A DNA stretch of 64,000 bases from Bradyrhizobium sp. dw_411 (GTDB taxonomy: Bacteria > Pseudomonadota > Alphaproteobacteria > Rhizobiales > Xanthobacteraceae): the NCBI RefSeq assembly GCF_018449695.1, contig NZ_JAAVUY010000028.1, forward strand, positions 1-64,000. The letters are read 5' to 3'. Under the pieces are notes generated by a model that saw only the letters and a list, made by a program, of their open reading frames with translations, was not told where the DNA came from and ran no database searches. The stretch's first letter is position 1. Each line of letters opens with the position of its first letter. Shown here in pieces: positions 30,203 to 41,462 of the stretch. The position numbers and the translations under genes were made by a program.

Positions 30203-31156
30203 ATGGCCAAAGGTTTCGCATCCACCACTGACATGGCGGAGAAGAAGGTGACATTCTCGGAGATCGGCACCGATCTCTATGCCTTCACCGCCGAGGGCGA
30301 TCCCAATTCCGCTATCATCGTCGGCGACGACGGCTGCCTGGTGTTCGACGCGCAGGCGACGCCGGCTATGGCCAATAAAGTGATCGAGCGCGTGCGCACC
30401 GTTACCGACAAGCCGATCAAATATGTGGTGTTGTCGCATTACCACGCGGTGCGGGTGCTCGGCGCGTCGGCCTACAAGGCGCAAGCCGTGATTGCCTCGT
30501 CGGAAACCTATCGGCTGGTCGAGGAACGCGGCCAGCAGGATTGGGATTCCGAATATGGCCGCTTCCCCCGGTTGTTTCAGGACGCGCAAAGCATTCCCGG
30601 CCTGACCTGGCCGACTCTGACGTTCGAGGGCGAGATGTCGATCTTTCTCGGCAAGCGCGAAGTGCGCCTGATGCAGCTAGGCGCGGGTCACACCTCCGGC
30701 GATATCGTGGCGTGGGTGCCCGATGCCGAGGTGATGTTTTCAGGCGACCTGATCGAATATCATTCGGCCTGCTATTGCGGCGACGCGCATTTACGCGAAT
30801 GGCCGGCGACGCTGAACGAAATTCGCGCCTTCAATCCCAAGGCGATCGCGCCGGGGCGCGGCGATGCGCTCAAGGGGCTGGCGACCGGGCGCGATGCGAT
30901 TGCGATGACGCGCGATTTCGTGACTACGCTCTATGGCGCGGCGGAAGCCGCGGTCGCCCGGGGACGCAATCTCAAGGAGACGATGGCGGCGGCCCGCGAA
31001 GTGATGGATCCGAAATTCCAAAACTTTGCGATCTACGAGCATTGCCTGCCGTTCAACGTCTCGCGGGCGTTCGATGAAGCTTCGGGAATCGACGACCCCG
31101 TGATCTGGACCGACAAGCGCGATCGGGAAATGTGGGCCAGCCTGCAAGGAGGATGA
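30203..31156 (+). CDS. MBL-fold metallo-hydrolase with altered metal motif
   Basis: 317 residues from the ATG at 30203, preceded by GAGAGGA. The MBL fold is clear: [48 protein letters not shown] and MFSGDLIEY. In the usual H-x-H-x-D-H motif the last two positions are Val83 and Arg84, leaving H79, H81, H163 and D182, so at most one complete metal site remains. It ends 1 bp before hmgA, whose AAGGAGG site lies within its last codons, indicating translational coupling. Its role in the aromatic pathway is unknown. Confidence 0.78.
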
Positions 31157-33935: not shown

Positions 33936-33940
33936 CCGCC

Positions 33941-34019
33941 GTCATTCCGGGATGGTCCGAAGGACCAGACCCGGAATCTCGAGATTCCGGGTTCCTGCTG
34001 CGCAGGCCCCGGAATGACG
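33941..34019. repeat. palindromic element, GTCATTCCGGG family
   Basis: 79-bp copy 5 bp after the fahA stop and 14 bp before the end of the convergent DUF1272 gene. Its position suits a bidirectional terminator. Confidence 0.85.
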
Positions 34020-34033
34020 ACGAGAGAGACAGC

Positions 34034-34345
34034 TCACCGCTCTTCCGGCGCAATATCCCTGATCCGTCCGCAATGCGCGGCGACATCGTCGAGACCATAT
34101 TTCAGATGCACGCGCTTGTCTGACGGCAGTTGTTTCTCGGCGCACACACCAGGCCGCCATTCCCTCGTCGGGCGGATTGGCCGCGGAACAAATCCGCCGC
34201 CGCAGTTCGGGCAGACATTGTCGAGTTTGCTCTCGGCGCATTCAGCGCAAAACGTACACTCGTAGCTGCAGATCCGCGCGTCCGTTGAATTGGGCGGGAG
34301 ATCCCTATCGCAATATTCGCAGTTCGGCCGGAGTTGCAATGCCAT
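34034..34345 (-). CDS. DUF1272 cysteine-rich protein
   Basis: 103 residues from MALQLRPNCE. The first 55 residues match DUF1272: NCEYCDRDLPPNS, ICSYECTFCAECAE, VCPNCGGGFVPRPIRP, with eight Cys arranged as two zinc knuckles. The C-terminal 40 residues are charged and not assigned. A small cytoplasmic zinc-binding protein of unknown role. Confidence 0.82.
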   Translation of the reverse strand: MALQLRPNCEYCDRDLPPNSTDARICSYECTFCAECAESKLDNVCPNCGGGFVPRPIRPTREWRPGVCAEKQLPSDKRVHLKYGLDDVAAHCGRIRDIAPEER

Positions 34346-34432: not shown

Positions 34433-35548
34433 CTATCGTTTCCCGGCCTGCCATTCACGGGTCAGGCTCGCGATATCGGCCATCGCGGTGTCGCGGATCG
34501 TCGAGGGCGTGCGCGAAAAGCGCGGCGCCGGTGCGGGCTGGGTGACGCCGTGGCGGGTCACGAAGGTCTGTCGGGCCGCCATGTGCGGATGTTCCGGCGC
34601 TTCCTTCATGGTCAGGACCGGCGCGAAGCAGATGTCGGTGCCTTCCATGATCTCACACCATTCGTCGCGCGTCTTGGTCTTGAACACCTCCACCAGTTTC
34701 TGCTTGAGCGCGGGCCACGCCTTACGATCCATGTGAGCGTCGAAATCGGAATGCGAGAGGCCGGCCAGATCGCGCAGCAGCGCGTAGAATTGCGGCTCGA
34801 TCGAGCCGATCGAAATGAAGCTTTTGCAGGCGCATTCATAGACACCATAGAAATGCGCGCCGCCGTCGAGAAAATTGGTCCCTCGTTGTTCGGTCCATCG
34901 GCCGGCCGCGGTCATGTCAAAGAACATCGACATCAGCGACGCCGCGCCGTCGCACATCGCCGCGTCCACCACCTGTCCCTTGCCGGACGTCTTGGCTTCC
35001 AGCAATGCGGCGAGCACGCCGACCACGAGATAGAGTGCCCCGCCGCCGAAATCGCCGACCAGATTGAGCGGCGGCACCGGTGTTTCGGCGGTGCCGATGG
35101 CCGCGAGCGCGCCGGTGACCGAGATATAATTGATGTCATGGCCGGCGGCCTTCGCCAGCGGGCCCTCCTGGCCCCATCCGGTCATGCGGCCATAGACCAG
35201 GCGCGGGTTTCGCGCCTGCACGACGTCAGGGCCGAGACCGAGCCGCTCCATCACGCCGGGACGAAAACCCTCGACCAGCGCATCGGCACCGCCGAGCAGA
35301 TCGAGCACCTGTGCGATCGCGGCCTTGTCCTTCAGGTCGAGTTCGACAATCTTCCGTCCACGCCCGGAGGCGGATTTGAGATTCTTGCCGGTGCCGACAC
35401 GATCGAGTGTCACGACTTCTGCGCCCATATCGGCCAACATCATGCAGGCAAAGGGACCCGGTCCGATGCCGGCGAATTCCACGACGCGGAAACCCGCGAG
35501 CGGACCGGAGGCGCCGACGGAGGAGTGTGGGGCAGATTTTTCGAGCAC
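34433..35548 (-). CDS. CaiB/BaiF-family CoA-transferase or alpha-methylacyl-CoA racemase
   Basis: 371 residues from the GTG at 35548, which is preceded by GGGAGA. A longer frame to 35659 has no visible site. LAGFRVVEFAGIGPGPFACMMLADMGAEVV is the class III CoA-transferase N-terminus. The motif YGRMTGWGQEGPLAKAAGHDINYISVTGAL contains the Asp that is catalytic in the family. DGGAHFYGVYECACKSFISIGSIEPQFYALL is characteristic of the racemase subgroup. It probably epimerises 2-methylacyl-CoA; transferase activity cannot be excluded. Confidence 0.82.
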   Translation of the reverse strand: MLEKSAPHSSVGASGPLAGFRVVEFAGIGPGPFACMMLADMGAEVVTLDRVGTGKNLKSASGRGRKIVELDLKDKAAIAQVLDLLGGADALVEGFRPGVMERLGLGPDVVQARNPRLVYGRMTGWGQEGPLAKAAGHDINYISVTGALAAIGTAETPVPPLNLVGDFGGGALYLVVGVLAALLEAKTSGKGQVVDAAMCDGAASLMSMFFDMTAAGRWTEQRGTNFLDGGAHFYGVYECACKSFISIGSIEPQFYALLRDLAGLSHSDFDAHMDRKAWPALKQKLVEVFKTKTRDEWCEIMEGTDICFAPVLTMKEAPEHPHMAARQTFVTRHGVTQPAPAPRFSRTPSTIRDTAMADIASLTREWQAGKR

Positions 35549-35687
35549 GTGGGGGTCTCCCGAAGTCGCTTGGTGACGAAATTGTCTAGCCTTGCGGGAA
35601 GGGAGGCAAGCGCCTTTTGGCGAGAAGTACGGCCGGCAGTGCGGCGCGCATTGCTGCACGCCGCTTGCCCGGGTCCGTGCCCGATCC

Positions 35688-38006
35688 TCATGGCCTTTTC
35701 AGGATTGCTCCAATCTTGTCCACGGTCATGGAGGGCAAGAAATCCGGATCGGTAACGATTGCCATGGCTTCGTCCTGCGTCAGGGCGCGCAACGACCGGA
35801 CCTTGGTCTCGCCGCTGCCGATTTCCCACGCACTTTCCCAGAGTACCGCCAACAGGTGGGCACCCTGCTTCATCACATTGATGGTCTTTTGGCCGTAGGC
35901 GGCCCACAACGCGTCGGAACTCGCTTTTCCGCCTTTGCCGACGTCGACATAGGTCTGGACCATGTCCATCGGTGGAATTTGCTTAAATACGTCGCGCATC
36001 ATCTCGATGGTCTTCTGCGCCGCCTCAAAGCCGTTCGTTATCTGCTCGCTCTTTTTCGCCTGTGGCGTCCGCATCAGGCCGCTCAGGATTTCCTTGCGAT
36101 GATCGAAGACCATCTTATCCTCATAGGCGGAATGGACGCCCTGGCCTAACGGACGCTTCTCGGTCGTGCCCGCCTTTTTGCCTTTTGTGAACTCATGTTC
36201 CTGCGGCCGTTCTGGATCTCCGTCGTGGAGGTAGGAGATGTGGAGAGGCTGGCATGCGTCACCCACATAGTGGGTAAGCACGCCGGCGGCACACACGAAT
36301 TTCTGGGCTTCGCCATCGGCGGCAAACTGGCACATCTCGTCGAAAATCTGCCACACCCGGAAGGGCAGCAGTCCCCGGTGCTTCGCCGCGATCGGCTCAC
36401 CGCTGAGAATGTCGTCCACGCTGTCGTAGAAAGCCTGCCATTTGTCGGGGTCGATAAAATCGGGGCTGGTCGTCAAGCTGAGCAGCGTGTTGCCGTCCGC
36501 GTCCTTTTGATCCATGTCGGCGAAATGGTTCGGCCCTTCCGAGGGCCGGGTGTGGTTTTGCTTGCCGACACCGGGCTTCCAGAAGAAATCCGGCACATCC
36601 GCCATCGGCACGAAATCCTGGGTGCCCATACCCTTGAAGTCCCCTTCCTCGAGGGCGTCATCGTCGTGGCTTATGATTTCCTTGTTATTCTCCATCAGCG
36701 TATCGAGATGCGGGTATTTTCCCGACAACGCGACGAGGGTGCGCGTCGCGATGGAGAAATGGCCGAGGGCGCCCCAGGTATCCGTTTGGTCGAGATTCCA
36801 GTCGCGAACCGGGTCGACTTCGAGAAGCGCGCAGACTCTCGACAGCAACGTTGCCAGGGCAAAGCTTTGCGGAGGAGCGCTTTCGGATGAGGCGAGCATG
36901 TTGCGTCCCCATTCCATGGCCAGCGGCAAGAAAGGCTTGTCGGCGTTGGCCTTCGGATCTGCGTCGGCGATTGGCTCCAGCATCCAAAGCGTTCCGGAAT
37001 CGCCGGGATGTGTTGCAAACCCGGGTGCAGGATATCGTTTTCCGCCGCGGGTTTTCGCGGGTGCGCGCGGACCGATGAACAGGTCCGAGACGTACTCGAA
37101 GCCGCCACTCGTCTTGTATCTGTAAAACAGACCTTGAATTTCGCCTAGCATTTCTCCCGTTGCGGCGCCGACGCCGCGAACGTGACAGCCCACAAGTGAC
37201 AATGTCAGATTTATCCCGGAGAAATCGGCCATTGGCCCCAAAATGCCGATACCCGGAACCTTGGTGGTCCATCGCGAAACGTCGTCGACTTCGATCAAGC
37301 CGATGTCGAGGTTCACGTAAGTGTCCTTGCCCGGGAAGTTCGGATAGATCGATGTGAACGATTGGCGCGTGAGTTGCTTGGCCGCGCTTACACCAACCCG
37401 TTCGCGTACGCCATTGAGTTCGGACCAGACGATTTCTCCGGCATCGCCGGTCACATGCCGGTTAGTGAGGGCGAATACCTTGTGCCCATCACTCACAAGA
37501 CAGCCGACCGTGGCCACGTATTCCTGGCCCTGTACTTCCGCGATGATCGGATTGCCGGGGCCGATATTGTTCAGCGGAAAACGAATATTTTGCGCTTCGA
37601 TCTCCGTCTTGGATTCTTTGGGGGCCTCGATAACGCAGATCGGTACACGTTTCCCGTCGGGCATGAATATGGTGCCTGGTACGAACTGGTCGGGCTTCGA
37701 AGCAAATACCTTGTAGTCTTGCCACTGGTTCACGAAGACCAGAATGCACGGCCAGGAATAGGGTCTGACCTCGGAATTATCCAGCCGGCGGGCCGACGTG
37801 CCGTGGATCTTCTTCTTGTCATTTGGCCAGCTATCCCCCTGTCGTATCCGGTAACGTCCGATCGCGGTCGCAACGACATTGGGATACCGCATCAGGTGAA
37901 CGTGGAATAAATCTCGTGCCGTGACGAGATCGTTCAGCGACAGGTTGGCGAAATTATTGTCCTGGTTCTGAAATGCGGAGAGGTCGATCTGGGGCTGCGC
38001 TTTCAT
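35688..38006 (-). CDS. serine protease/P1-nuclease-phospholipase-C-like fusion protein
   Basis: 772 residues from the ATG at 38006, with GGAGAA upstream; no signal peptide. Residues about 165-345 look like a chymotrypsin-fold protease: His184 (ALTNRHV), Asp234 (NLDIGLIEV), Ser337 (HPGDSGTLWML). Residues about 411-735 match P1/S1 nuclease and zinc phospholipase C. W411-GALG-H416 equals W1/H6 of P1, with D470 (MADVPDF), H494 (PNHFADMD), H579, D583 and H589 (HYVGDACQPLH), H625 and E629 (HSAYE). All nine ligand positions are filled, the last with Glu for Asp. In P1 the amino group of W1 binds zinc, so the internal W411 implies processing or a changed site. Residues 1-160 are unassigned. The gene is monocistronic between its own promoter and the CoA-transferase gene. 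Confidence 0.78.
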   Translation of the reverse strand: MKAQPQIDLSAFQNQDNNFANLSLNDLVTARDLFHVHLMRYPNVVATAIGRYRIRQGDSWPNDKKKIHGTSARRLDNSEVRPYSWPCILVFVNQWQDYKVFASKPDQFVPGTIFMPDGKRVPICVIEAPKESKTEIEAQNIRFPLNNIGPGNPIIAEVQGQEYVATVGCLVSDGHKVFALTNRHVTGDAGEIVWSELNGVRERVGVSAAKQLTRQSFTSIYPNFPGKDTYVNLDIGLIEVDDVSRWTTKVPGIGILGPMADFSGINLTLSLVGCHVRGVGAATGEMLGEIQGLFYRYKTSGGFEYVSDLFIGPRAPAKTRGGKRYPAPGFATHPGDSGTLWMLEPIADADPKANADKPFLPLAMEWGRNMLASSESAPPQSFALATLLSRVCALLEVDPVRDWNLDQTDTWGALGHFSIATRTLVALSGKYPHLDTLMENNKEIISHDDDALEEGDFKGMGTQDFVPMADVPDFFWKPGVGKQNHTRPSEGPNHFADMDQKDADGNTLLSLTTSPDFIDPDKWQAFYDSVDDILSGEPIAAKHRGLLPFRVWQIFDEMCQFAADGEAQKFVCAAGVLTHYVGDACQPLHISYLHDGDPERPQEHEFTKGKKAGTTEKRPLGQGVHSAYEDKMVFDHRKEILSGLMRTPQAKKSEQITNGFEAAQKTIEMMRDVFKQIPPMDMVQTYVDVGKGGKASSDALWAAYGQKTINVMKQGAHLLAVLWESAWEIGSGETKVRSLRALTQDEAMAIVTDPDFLPSMTVDKIGAILKRP

Positions 38007-38123
38007 GAGGGTTCTCCAAAAAAGCTGAATGAAGGCCGGCCTGATGCAGCGATCGGAATCGCGAGAAATCGTTTCGGTCTGGCTGGCCGGGAGCAACGTG
38101 GCGCCGCCGAAAATGCATAATCT

Positions 38124-38152
38124 ATCTAAAATCGTAACTTATAATATTTCAA
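38124..38152 (-). promoter_or_regulatory. sigma-70-like promoter for the fusion gene
   Basis: On the minus strand TTGAAA (38147-38152), a 17-nt spacer and TTAGAT (38124-38129), in a clearly AT-rich patch 118 nt upstream of the fusion start. Confidence 0.4.
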
Positions 38153-38241
38153 TCAAAGAGATATTGGTTCAGCCGGGATAAATTTCCAATGTGCCGGTTT
38201 GTCGCAATGTGGCTCCCATCCTATCGACGTTTCATGGCTTC

Positions 38242-38273
38242 AAAATGAAACGGCGCGCATTGCTGCGCGCCGT
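38242..38273 (-). terminator. rho-independent terminator after the molybdenum hydroxylase operon
   Basis: Perfect 10-bp arms ACGGCGCGCA (38250-38259) and TGCGCGCCGT (38264-38273) with a TTGC loop. On the minus strand the stem is followed by TTTCATTTTG. It lies about 28 nt past the stop of the FAD-subunit gene. Confidence 0.75.
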
Positions 38274-38301
38274 TCTGTCCGGAATGCTTGAAATGCCGGG
38301 G

Positions 38302-39102
38302 TCAGCCGGCTTCAGCAATCGCGCGTTGTGCCATCACCTTGATCAGGTTGGCGCGATAGGCCGACGATCCGTGAATATCGGTCAGGAGCCCGTCAGCGGA
38401 GATTTTCACGCTGTCCAGTGCGCCCGGCGACCAGTTCGCCTTCAGCGCAGCCTCGATTGCCGGTATCCGCATCACGCCGTTCTGCGATGCGCCGGTTGCG
38501 GCAACCCGGACATCTCCCGCTTTGGTCCTGGCCACGAACACGCCGGTGAGTGCGAAACGCGAGGCGGGGTGGCGCATTTTTGCGTAAGCCGCCTTGGCGG
38601 GAATCGGGAACACGATCTGCGTGATGATTTCGCCGTCCGCAAGCGCAGTCGTGAACAGTCCCTTGAAGAAATCGTCGGCGGCGATGCTGCGCTTGTCGGT
38701 TTTCACCGTCGCGCCGAGCGCCAGAACGGCCGCGGGATAATCCGCGGCGGGATCGTTGTTGGCGATCGAGCCGCCGATGGTGCCGCGATGGCGCACCTGG
38801 GGATCGCCGAGCACCGAGGTCAGATGCCCGATTGCCGGGATCGCCTTTTTGACGTCGGCGCTTTGCATGATGTCGAAGTAAGTCGTTGCGGCCTTGATCG
38901 TCAGTGCGTCGGCCGACACCTCGATGCCAACCAGTTCCTTGATACGTCCGAGATCGATCACGTCGGAGGGTGAGGCCAGCCGCTGCTTCATCACGGGGAT
39001 CAGCGTGTGGCCGCCCGCCAGATATTTGGGCTCCGAACCGCTGGCGAAAAGTGCCGTGGCTTCGGCAACGGAGGAGGGGCGATGATAGGTTGTCTCATAC
39101 AT
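38302..39102 (-). CDS. FAD-binding subunit of a xanthine dehydrogenase-family enzyme (CoxM-like)
   Basis: 266 residues from MYETTYHRPSS, 14 bp after the large-subunit gene. FAD motifs of the CoxM family are seen: AGGHTLIPVMKQRL near residue 31 and TIGGSIANNDPAADYPAAVLALGA near residue 105. It passes electrons from the [2Fe-2S] subunit to FAD and then to an acceptor. Third gene of the small-large-medium operon on the minus strand. Confidence 0.9.
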   Translation of the reverse strand: MYETTYHRPSSVAEATALFASGSEPKYLAGGHTLIPVMKQRLASPSDVIDLGRIKELVGIEVSADALTIKAATTYFDIMQSADVKKAIPAIGHLTSVLGDPQVRHRGTIGGSIANNDPAADYPAAVLALGATVKTDKRSIAADDFFKGLFTTALADGEIITQIVFPIPAKAAYAKMRHPASRFALTGVFVARTKAGDVRVAATGASQNGVMRIPAIEAALKANWSPGALDSVKISADGLLTDIHGSSAYRANLIKVMAQRAIAEAG

Positions 39103-39116
39103 GGTCCGTCTCCCTC

Positions 39117-41462
39117 TTACGCGTTGCCGTGAATGGCGTGCCACACCCGATCGGGTGTCGCCGGCATCTCAAGCTTGTTGTGGCCGATGGCGTCGGTGAT
39201 GGCGTTGATGACGGCGGCGGAGGCGCCGATCGCACCGGCCTCGCCGCAGCCCTTGACGCCCAGGGGATTGCCGGGACACAGCGTCGGTGTGTGCGATAGC
39301 TTGAACGACGGCAGGTCGTCGGCACGTGGCATGGTGTAATCCATGAACGACGCGGTCACGAGCTGACCCGAGCTGTCGTAAACCGCGCCTTCGAGCAGCG
39401 CCTGACCTATGCCCTGTGCGAGGCCGCCATGGACCTGGCCTTCGACAATCATCGGATTGATCAGCCGGCCGAAATCGTCGACTGCGACAAAATTGACGAA
39501 GCTGGTTTTGCCGGTGCCGGAATCAACCTCGAGTTCGCAGATATAGGCCCCTGCCGGGAAGGTGAAGTTGGTGGGGTCGTAAAACGCGGTTTCCTTGAGG
39601 CCAGGCTCCATGCCGTCAGGCAGATTGTGCGCGGTGTAGGCGGCGAGCGCGACCATTGGCAGCGCAATCGACTTGTCGGTGCCGGTGACCTTGAACTCGC
39701 CGTTCTCAATGACGATGTCGCCTTCGGACGCTTCGAGCAGATGCGCCGCGATTTTTTTGCCCTTGGCTTCGACCTTCTCCATCGCCTTGACGATGGCGGT
39801 GCCGCCGACGGCGAGCGAGCGCGAGCCGTAAGTGCCCATGCCGAACTGCACCTTGTCGGTGTCGCCATGGACAATCTGCACCTGGCTGATCGGAACGCCG
39901 AGACGTTCCGCAACGAGTTGGGCGAATGTCGTCTCGTGGCCCTGGCCGTGGCTGTGCGATCCCGTCAGGACCTCGATGGTGCCGACCGGATTGACGCGGA
40001 CCTCGGCGGATTCCCACAGGCCGACGCCGGCGCCGAGGCTGCCGACTGCTTTCGAGGGCGCAATACCGCAGGCCTCAATGTAGCAGGAGAAACCTATGCC
40101 GCGCAGCTTGCCTTCTTTCTTCGCCTTTTCCTTGCGGGCGGGGAAACCGGCATAGTCGATCGCCTTCAGTGCGACATCGAGCGACGCGCCGAAATCGCCG
40201 ATATCATAGGCCATGATTACAGGCGTCTGGTGCGGGAAGGTCGTGATGAAGTTCTTGCGGCGTAAATCCGCCGGATCGACCTTCAACTGCCGCGCCGCGG
40301 TTTCCATCATGCGTTCGATCAGAAAACTCGCTTCGGGACGGCCTGCGCCCCGGTAGGCATCGACCGGTGTGGTGTTGGTATAGACGGCGATCACCTCGGC
40401 ATAGATCGAGGGAATGTTGTACTGGCCAGACAGCAGCGTCGCATAGAGATAGGTCGGCACGGCTGACGAGAACAGCGACATATAGGCGCCGAAATTGGCG
40501 TGGGTCTTGACCCGCAGGGCAACGATCCTGTTGTCCTTGTCGAACGCCATTTCCGCTTTCGAGACATGGTCGCGGCCATGGGCGTCGGTGAGGAAGGCCT
40601 CGGACCGATCGCCGGTCCATTTCACCGGGCGCCGGACCTTCTTGGAGGCCCACAGCGCCACCATTTCTTCCGGATAGATGTAGATCTTCGAGCCGAAACC
40701 GCCGCCGACATCGGGTGCGATTACCCGCAGCTTGTGTTCCTGGGCGATGTTGTAAAAGGCCGACAACACCAGCCGCGCGACATGCGGATTCTGCGAGGTC
40801 GTGTACAGCGTGAAATGTTCTTCGGCTTCGTTATATTCCGCGATCGCCGCACGCGGTTCCATGGCGTTCGGCACCAGCCTGTTATTGGTGAGATCGAGCG
40901 ACACGATGTTGGCCGCTTTGCTGAAGGCGTCCTTGACGGCAGCCTCGTCGCCGATCGCCCAGTCATAGACGATGTTGCCCGGTGCTTCCGGATGCAGTTG
41001 CGGCGCGCCGGGTCTGATTGCGGCGGCAATATCCGCCACGGCCGGAAGTTCCTCGTAGGTGACGATGACGGCTTCCGCCGCGTCCTTTGCCAGATTCTTG
41101 GTCTCGGCGATGACAACGGCGACTGCCTGGCCGGCAAAGCGCACCGTCTCCGGCGCCATCGCCGGCCACGCGCCCATCTTCATCGGTGTGCCGTCCTTGG
41201 AAGAAATCGCCCAGCCGCAGATGAGATTGCCGACCTTGTCATCGACGATCTCCTGTCCGGTCAGCACGCCGACCACGCCCGGCATCTTCATCGCGACCGA
41301 GGAGTCGATATTTTTTACCTTGGCGTGCGCGTGCGGGCTGCGGATGAAATGGGCATGGGTCATGCCCTGGAGCTTGATGTCGTCGACGTAACGGCCCTTG
41401 CCCGTGATGAAACGCCGGTCTTCCTTGCGCACGACGCTTGCGCCAATGCCTTCAACGCCCAT
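39117..41462 (-). CDS. molybdopterin-binding large subunit, form-II CoxL type
   Basis: 781 residues, preceded by GGGAGA. The family motifs are AYRGAGR at 369-375, the GGGFGSK cofactor loop near 253, and the C-terminal [11 protein letters not shown] holding the catalytic Glu. True CO dehydrogenases (form I) have AYxCSFR with a Cys ligand to copper. AYRGAGR marks form II, for which CO oxidation is not generally established and which includes hydroxylases of aromatic and heterocyclic compounds. It is encoded between the small and FAD subunits. The substrate is unknown. Confidence 0.9.

Follow-up and report, generated by a model that had tools for sequence, protein, structure and literature searches.

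Trypsin-like proteases turn on MBL pro-nucleases in the Hachiman, AVAST, Lamassu and DRT systems (HamM/HamA; PMC12799240), and enzymes of further classes, likewise switched on by proteolysis, may be at work, according to the available part of that source. In these pairs the protease cuts and activates a metal-dependent effector, as we propose here for a fusion protein, but there the sensor carries the protease, a gene of its own encodes the MBL-fold nuclease, and cleavage takes out insertions that block the enzyme. The fusion described below is instead one chain with an effector of the PLC/P1 fold, in which the proposed cut would create a metal ligand.

The earlier note on this DNA knew of no characterised protein with the same order of domains. 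The same protease-PLC/P1 fusion was indeed not found in the literature searched, which covers the gasdermin and CARD-system literature only in part, but a recent analogue with a different endonuclease exists in LypC of Caulobacter crescentus, a trypsin-endonuclease fusion whose protease, and not its nuclease, is needed for lysis (PMC13236601, available part). LypC resembles our fusion in layout, with an N-terminal trypsin-like protease and a C-terminal hydrolase in one cytosolic, lysis-linked chain. However, its second half has been aligned with EndA/NucA/Dns-type endonucleases, and it works from an operon shared with LypA and LypB; no LypA- or LypB-like partner was seen among the neighbour families listed for the fusion gene. 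NucA-trypsin systems are also mentioned in the available part of PMC8195603. The HET-C domain, a predicted relative of PLC and S1-P1 enzymes, has been linked to programmed cell death and toxins, with no Trp in its listed conserved residues and no such fused protease described in the available part of the source (PMC3482391). As far as the available parts of these sources go, the closest published precedents use other effector folds.

The fusion gene and its surroundings

The fusion gene lies in the window, by which we mean the whole 64-kb stretch of Bradyrhizobium sp. dw_411 DNA that was analysed. Its features are as follows.

35688..38006, minus strand: protease-hydrolase fusion gene, 772 aa, ATG at 38006, stop at 35688-35690
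38007..38301, minus strand: gap upstream of the fusion gene, 295 bp, G+C 0.502 against 0.621 for the window
37752..38006, minus strand: residues 1-85, leader region, partly and weakly like the NAL1 N-terminal domain (NAL1_N below cut-off)
36792..37751, minus strand: residues 86-405, NAL1-type chymotrypsin-fold protease (profile and structural match)
37455..37457, minus strand: His184 of the predicted triad (21/21 rows)
37305..37307, minus strand: Asp234 of the predicted triad (21/21 rows)
36996..36998, minus strand: Ser337 of the predicted triad, in GDSG (21/21 rows)
36777..36791, minus strand: residues 406-410, linker, with the proposed cut after 410 (NAL1 alignments end at 403-406)
36774..36776, minus strand: Trp411, proposed new N-terminus and zinc ligand (21/21 rows; structural register)
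35691..36776, minus strand: residues 411-772, zinc hydrolase of the PLC/S1-P1 nuclease superfamily (profile, models, Foldseek/VIA)

The 772-residue single frame described in the earlier note is genuine, running on the minus strand from the ATG at 38006 to the stop at 35688-35690. Its G+C is 0.576 (window 0.621), and NCBIfam models gave no match to the 772-aa protein. The ORFs on both sides lie on the same strand as the fusion gene. We read the one at 34433-35659 as a CaiB-type CoA transferase and those at 38302-39144 and 39117-41462 as the FAD and molybdenum subunits of a CO-dehydrogenase-like enzyme; the Pfam tally of neighbour proteins includes CoA_transf_3 and MoCoBD. The gene had been said to sit behind its own AT-rich promoter. 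The lower G+C of the upstream gap stands, but an own promoter is unproven because a promoter search found no sigma-70-like site in 35500-38400 and the flanking genes are co-directional. Elsewhere in the window, short stretches at 30260-30310 and 33940-34100 are rich in CHCEERSDEAIH and SGASRSDEPGISRF words in several frames and look like small dispersed repeats in intergenic gaps.

Hydropathy bore out the absence of a signal peptide, as the window protein has no hydrophobic start. The highest 19-residue hydropathy mean was 1.46 in the window protein and 1.53 over the 21 proteins, with no TM-like stretch; one row (L026), as called from the furthest upstream start, has a hydrophobic stretch within its first 50 residues. 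The fusion protein is thus cytosolic by prediction.

Relatives and conservation

A genome-contig scan seeded by two peptide patterns returned 84 stretches, 21 of which encode a relative with the same domain order, each as one ORF covering about the whole query; given this seeding, 21 is a lower bound. By record title, these loci are from Bradyrhizobium, Tardiphaga, Rhizobium, Mesorhizobium, Sphingobium, two Acetobacteraceae MAGs, three Bacteroidota, and one MAG each called Gammaproteobacteria, proteobacterium, Myxococcales and Obscuribacterales. On plasmids, tblastn found a relative in 4 of 72,556 records. It is annotated as one gene in Ensifer L011 and Sphingobium L012, and it is broken in the other two, into two pieces in L013 and four in L010, with possible sequencing errors in the latter. 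There was no match among 50,697 phage records, and 0/47 candidate stretches from viral contigs encode a relative. Broken or remnant copies also occur in genomes, comprising the last 52 residues in G153, residues 545-739 in G947 and a broken first half in G189 (broken-copy loci L008, L057, L007, L010 and L013).

Our main alignment (A4) combines the window protein with 20 contig-scan loci; the remaining one, L022, was left out as an apparent copy of L020 with the same length. Two further alignments (A5 and A6) additionally omit L033. The other rows of A4 are 36-69% identical to the window protein. The earlier residue numbering proved correct, and all twelve residues that it named (H184, D234 and S337 together with the nine zinc-site residues W411, H416, D470, H494, H579, D583, H589, H625 and E629, in that order) are identical in 21/21 rows, which suggests that both halves have been maintained together across several phyla.

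The protease half

Rice NARROW LEAF 1 (NAL1) is a plant growth regulator and a crop-yield protein. Profile comparison matched the first half of the fusion to rice NAL1 with E 3.4e-13 over positions 87-399, the leader region appearing as a weak first domain. In structural comparison by VIA, residues 13-405 of the full-length model matched NAL1 with Z 37.2 (rmsd 3.2, 337 residues aligned), and Foldseek gave E 6.8e-23 for the first half. Pfam scores lie around the cut-offs: for Nal1_C (cut-off 26.1 bits) the window protein (23.4) and L002 (19.2) fall below, and L011 (33.2), L012 (30.8) and L013 (28.9) above; for NAL1_N (cut-off 27) the window protein scored 12.3 bits and L011 23.8.

The chymotrypsin-fold protease of the earlier note is therefore borne out in the model as a NAL1-type fold with invariant triad residues. 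The triad is kept from NAL1, and His184, Asp234 and Ser337 would form the catalytic triad of a NAL1-type serine protease, judging from sequence. The solved NAL1 chains that were matched are proteases without a zinc hydrolase half, unlike the fusion. A stand-alone NAL1-like protease of 347 aa was observed in another genome of the phylum (G630, L056 4636-5679, minus strand), where the adjoining ORF may be an amidase.

The zinc hydrolase half

AlphaFold2 models were built for the full-length chain and for the second half alone, starting at Trp411 and using an alignment one row smaller. The full-length model had a mean pLDDT of 82.8 and pTM 0.55; the second half alone reached pLDDT 93.9 and pTM 0.93, with no residue below 70. 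From residue 411 on, the full-length model matched the PLC/S1-P1 fold at Z 17.5 to 16.1 among the VIA matches listed. For the second-half model, 29 rows of the PLC/P1 superfamily scored Z 18.1 to 15.2 and the next row 3.5, so that the predicted P1/PLC-fold zinc hydrolase holds at the level of the model. These rows include 1olp (Z 18.1, rmsd 3.4, 238 aligned), Bacillus cereus phospholipase C 1ah7 (Z 17.5, rmsd 3.1, 226 aligned), S1 nuclease 5fb9 (Z 17.4, rmsd 3.6, 230 aligned) and P1 nuclease 1ak0 (Z 16.0, rmsd 3.7, 229 aligned). Foldseek ranked SmNuc1 first (E 2.4e-4).

Profile models are less decisive. Matches to Nal1_C, Zn_dep_PLPC and S1-P1_nuclease were found, but the window protein stays under all cut-offs, with 19.3 bits against 26.8 for Zn_dep_PLPC and 13.1 against 29.5 for S1-P1_nuclease. 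Neither of these two cut-offs was passed by the pieces of five relatives, and the sub-cut-off scores favour PLC in the window protein but nuclease in L012.

The fold and the zinc-ligand set of residues 411-772 are common to Bacillus-type phospholipase C, S1/P1 and SmNuc1, and we take the nine invariant zinc-site residues to be the zinc ligands of the superfamily. The domain is longer in the fusion, with 362 residues against 230-270 in most PLC/P1 structural rows. Moreover, Bacillus-type phospholipase C, S1/P1 and SmNuc1 are exported, whereas the fusion is cytosolic by prediction and carries a protease in front. The best PLC and S1 nuclease structural rows tie, lying less than 1 Z apart. A Glu as last zinc ligand is the phospholipase C residue; Glu629 is present in 21/21 rows, as HxxYE or HxxFE, and three S1/P1 nucleases compared by reading of their sequences have Asp at this place. 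The second half is somewhat more probably a phospholipase C than a nuclease, with Glu629 favouring the former.

Trp411 and the junction between the halves

The mature chain of phospholipase C and P1-type nucleases starts with a Trp that binds one zinc through its free amino group and carbonyl. In the exported PLC, S1 and P1 relatives this Trp is exposed when a signal peptide or propeptide is removed. The most telling feature of the fusion, missed by the earlier note, is that Trp411 would need to become an N-terminus. NAL1 structural alignments end at 403-406, and the protease fold stops about five residues before Trp411. Each of the 29 superfamily rows for the second-half model starts by pairing Trp411 with the first residue of the solved chain, which is residue 1 in PLC, P1 and AtBFN2, 21 in S1, 26 in TBN1 and 27 in SmNuc1. 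The same register is kept in 15/16 PLC/P1 rows listed for the full-length model, the exception being 8cqm_B, where residue 410 is paired with chain residue 10. When Trp411 was paired by sequence only with the first residue of endonuclease 2, the score was -1.2, which is not significant alone. The Pfam S1-P1 model begins at the Trp equivalent to Trp411, and in three S1/P1 nuclease genes (one on contig C5 of this genome, the others at L014 and L021) the Trp stands directly behind an N-terminal segment that we read as a signal peptide.

Among the 21 rows, entropy is 1.6 to 1.9 bits at positions 407-410 and zero at W411 and G412. Four further Trp of the hydrolase domain (W476, W701, W723 and W727) are also invariant, and the invariance of Trp411 alone is thus no proof; what is special about Trp411 is its place. 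The residue before it varies (T 13, I 4, Y 2, R 1, V 1), which suits a fixed protease specificity only partly. A cut site after isoleucine is given for the protease of HamA in the available part of PMC12799240.

In the full-length model, pLDDT falls below 50 at 407-411, 461-463, 479-482 and in the first 16 residues. Starting the chain at Trp411 raised pLDDT by 18 at 411-420, around Trp411, by 22 to 33 in the four blocks of 451-490, around Asp470, and by 16 at 601-610, with gains of at most 11 in every other block. These gains are only a hint of Trp411 as an N-terminus in the model, and a shorter chain may score better anyway.

Distribution and insertion

The fusion gene is rare. Within the family, a protein query found it in 4/198 genomes (its own, a full copy in G080, the broken copy in G189 and the 52-residue remnant in G153), and a profile of the second half matched 6/248 genomes, its own included, with fragments in G153 and G947 and a further match in G962. 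The A1 query matched 1/385 class genomes (its own) and a first-half profile 2/398 phylum genomes (its own and the stand-alone NAL1-like gene in G630). All of these searches score few candidates per genome, and misses are possible.

We searched a 5.5-kb region around the gene in 60 genus genomes, for which 57 others are tabulated; of the 59 genomes besides the host's, two lack a flank row in the matches listed, and for one (G1024) only one flank is listed. Both flanks lie on one contig and strand in 56/57 tabulated sister genomes, with a median spacing of 182 bp over these 56. They are at most 383 bp apart in 55 sister genomes and about 2.7 kb apart in the window. The flanks are thus direct neighbours in nearly all sister genomes, which identifies the fusion gene as an insertion, and the gene is accessory and patchy. 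In the one exception (G1021), an unrelated ORF, which we read as flavin monooxygenase-like, occupies the gap between the flanks (L055 3301-4617, plus strand), indicating that the insertion site has been occupied more than once.

A tree of 21 proteins split the Bradyrhizobium-labelled rows over two well-supported clades, placed a MAG called Gammaproteobacteria beside the group of the window protein and joined the Bacteroidota in one clade. Horizontal spread of the gene is likely, with the caution that MAG bins can carry stray contigs.

Genomic neighbours and defence context

No fixed neighbour was found across 28 loci, in all of which only the fusion gene recurs; five other protein clusters appear in 3 to 5 of the 28 at scattered positions. 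With no neighbour at a fixed place, the fusion gene seems to act without fixed partners. The neighbour set (A7) comprised 137 of 143 chosen proteins within three genes of 24 loci, the six from L033 being omitted, and was chosen by a simple script, as were the genes compared across the 28 loci, such that some may be wrong frames. PADLOC matches among the 137 (25 of 35 families listed) included four cyclases matching PycC, two dGTPases and one AbiEii, with others singly. An annotated dGTPase neighbour lies in Sphingobium L012, two PycC-matching neighbours scanned singly match via the cyclase domain, and the AbiEii match (E 2.7e-215) is confined to one neighbour, being absent from 20 neighbour proteins scanned singly. 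Pfam families (25 of 146 listed) were mostly metabolic and transport-related, with four cyclases and two S1-P1 nucleases.

S1/P1 nuclease genes were observed near the fusion at L021 12356-13216 (plus strand, 46 bp downstream) and L014 7224-8270 (minus strand). The S1-P1 family has one match in the whole host genome, and two such nucleases among 137 neighbours seems more than chance.

The PADLOC model PDLC03017, named 'trypsin-like', matched the fusion protein over nearly its full length (E 2.6e-44) and the two halves apart with E 1.3e-27 and 1.6e-15; in 299 phylum genomes it had two matches, the fusion's own genome and G022. In the latter it matched a protein that we read as trypsin plus ATPase, in a Lyp-like cluster, with E 5.4e-50. 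The model is thus mixed, and we rejected it as proof of defence, as it also matches this protein of another build. By reading, the G022 locus itself is a candidate Lyp/CARD-NLR-like cluster (contig C8, L061 4022-16494) with genes for trypsin plus NucA-like, subtilisin plus trypsin, trypsin plus ATPase, STAND-like and TIR proteins.

The earlier note had suggested a regulated toxic effector. The accessory, patchy nature of the gene and the published protease-activated effectors agree with this, but no conserved defence context emerged from the 28 loci. Since the fusion has neither a signal peptide nor a known sensor domain, we infer a self-contained regulated effector, for which an anti-phage or conflict-defence role would, by analogy, be the likeliest.

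Proposed activation and alternatives

We hypothesize that the fusion is a one-chain zymogen in which the fused NAL1-type protease activates the PLC/P1-fold hydrolase by a cut before Trp411, a proposal to which we give an even chance. In the uncut chain the hydrolase would be off, because an internal Trp411 cannot offer a free alpha-amino group for zinc. On a trigger, the protease would cleave between 410 and 411, acting either in cis or inside an oligomer, and the new N-terminal Trp would then complete the zinc site of the freed hydrolase. The latter would attack phospholipids or, less likely, nucleic acids of its own cell, leading to arrest or lysis, and this might serve anti-phage or another kind of conflict defence. 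The fused protease would thereby take the role that signal peptidase has for the secreted relatives. No trigger or sensor was found for the fusion protein. An N-terminal Trp is a ClpS degron residue, so a freed but misfolded effector would be cleared; ClpS has two matches in the host genome. We more tentatively suggest, at slightly less than an even chance, that the gene is a one-gene regulated-death module, activated by making the N-terminal Trp zinc ligand of a PLC-type effector and not by unblocking.

The hydrolase might instead be active while still fused, with the Trp carbonyl, a side chain or a water filling the zinc position, and the two activities would then operate next to each other in a housekeeping or scavenging enzyme. 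The mostly metabolic and transport neighbours among the Pfam families listed would fit this, as would the place of the window gene within a same-strand metabolic row. Among the conserved residues listed for the HET-C domain, a predicted relative, there is no Trp (PMC3482391, available part), and the Trp may thus be dispensable in the wider superfamily. Nevertheless, a patchy accessory distribution with broken copies is unlike housekeeping, no signal peptide would bring the enzyme to outside substrates, and a Trp at the exact register would need another reason, which makes constitutive activity unlikely.

LypC suggests a different arrangement, a two-step effector in which the protease needs a trigger protein or cuts other targets and the hydrolase is minor or structural. 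There, lysis is lost with S296A but not with H471A/N505A, and deletion of the endonuclease destabilises the protein (PMC13236601, available part). We regard such an arrangement as rather improbable for the fusion, whose zinc-ligand set is invariant in 21/21 rows, unlike a domain kept for stability only. Membership in a CARD-NLR or Lyp-type defence operon is suggested by the similar protease-plus-effector layout and by the nearly full-length match to PDLC03017, but we consider it very improbable. That model is mixed and scores the G022 protein as well; A4 showed no similarity to two proteins of the G022 cluster (a weak test with single sequences); no nacht, STAND or CARD was among the families listed for the 137 neighbours (25/35 and 25/146); and the second half has the PLC/P1 fold, not the EndA/NucA-like one of LypC.

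If the one-chain zymogen is correct, a superfamily known mainly as exported enzymes would here be kept safe inside the cell, and the bacterial kin of NAL1 would gain a concrete substrate in the chain that they belong to. To the protease-activated effectors, a theme new to bacterial immunity, this fusion family would add a self-contained version.
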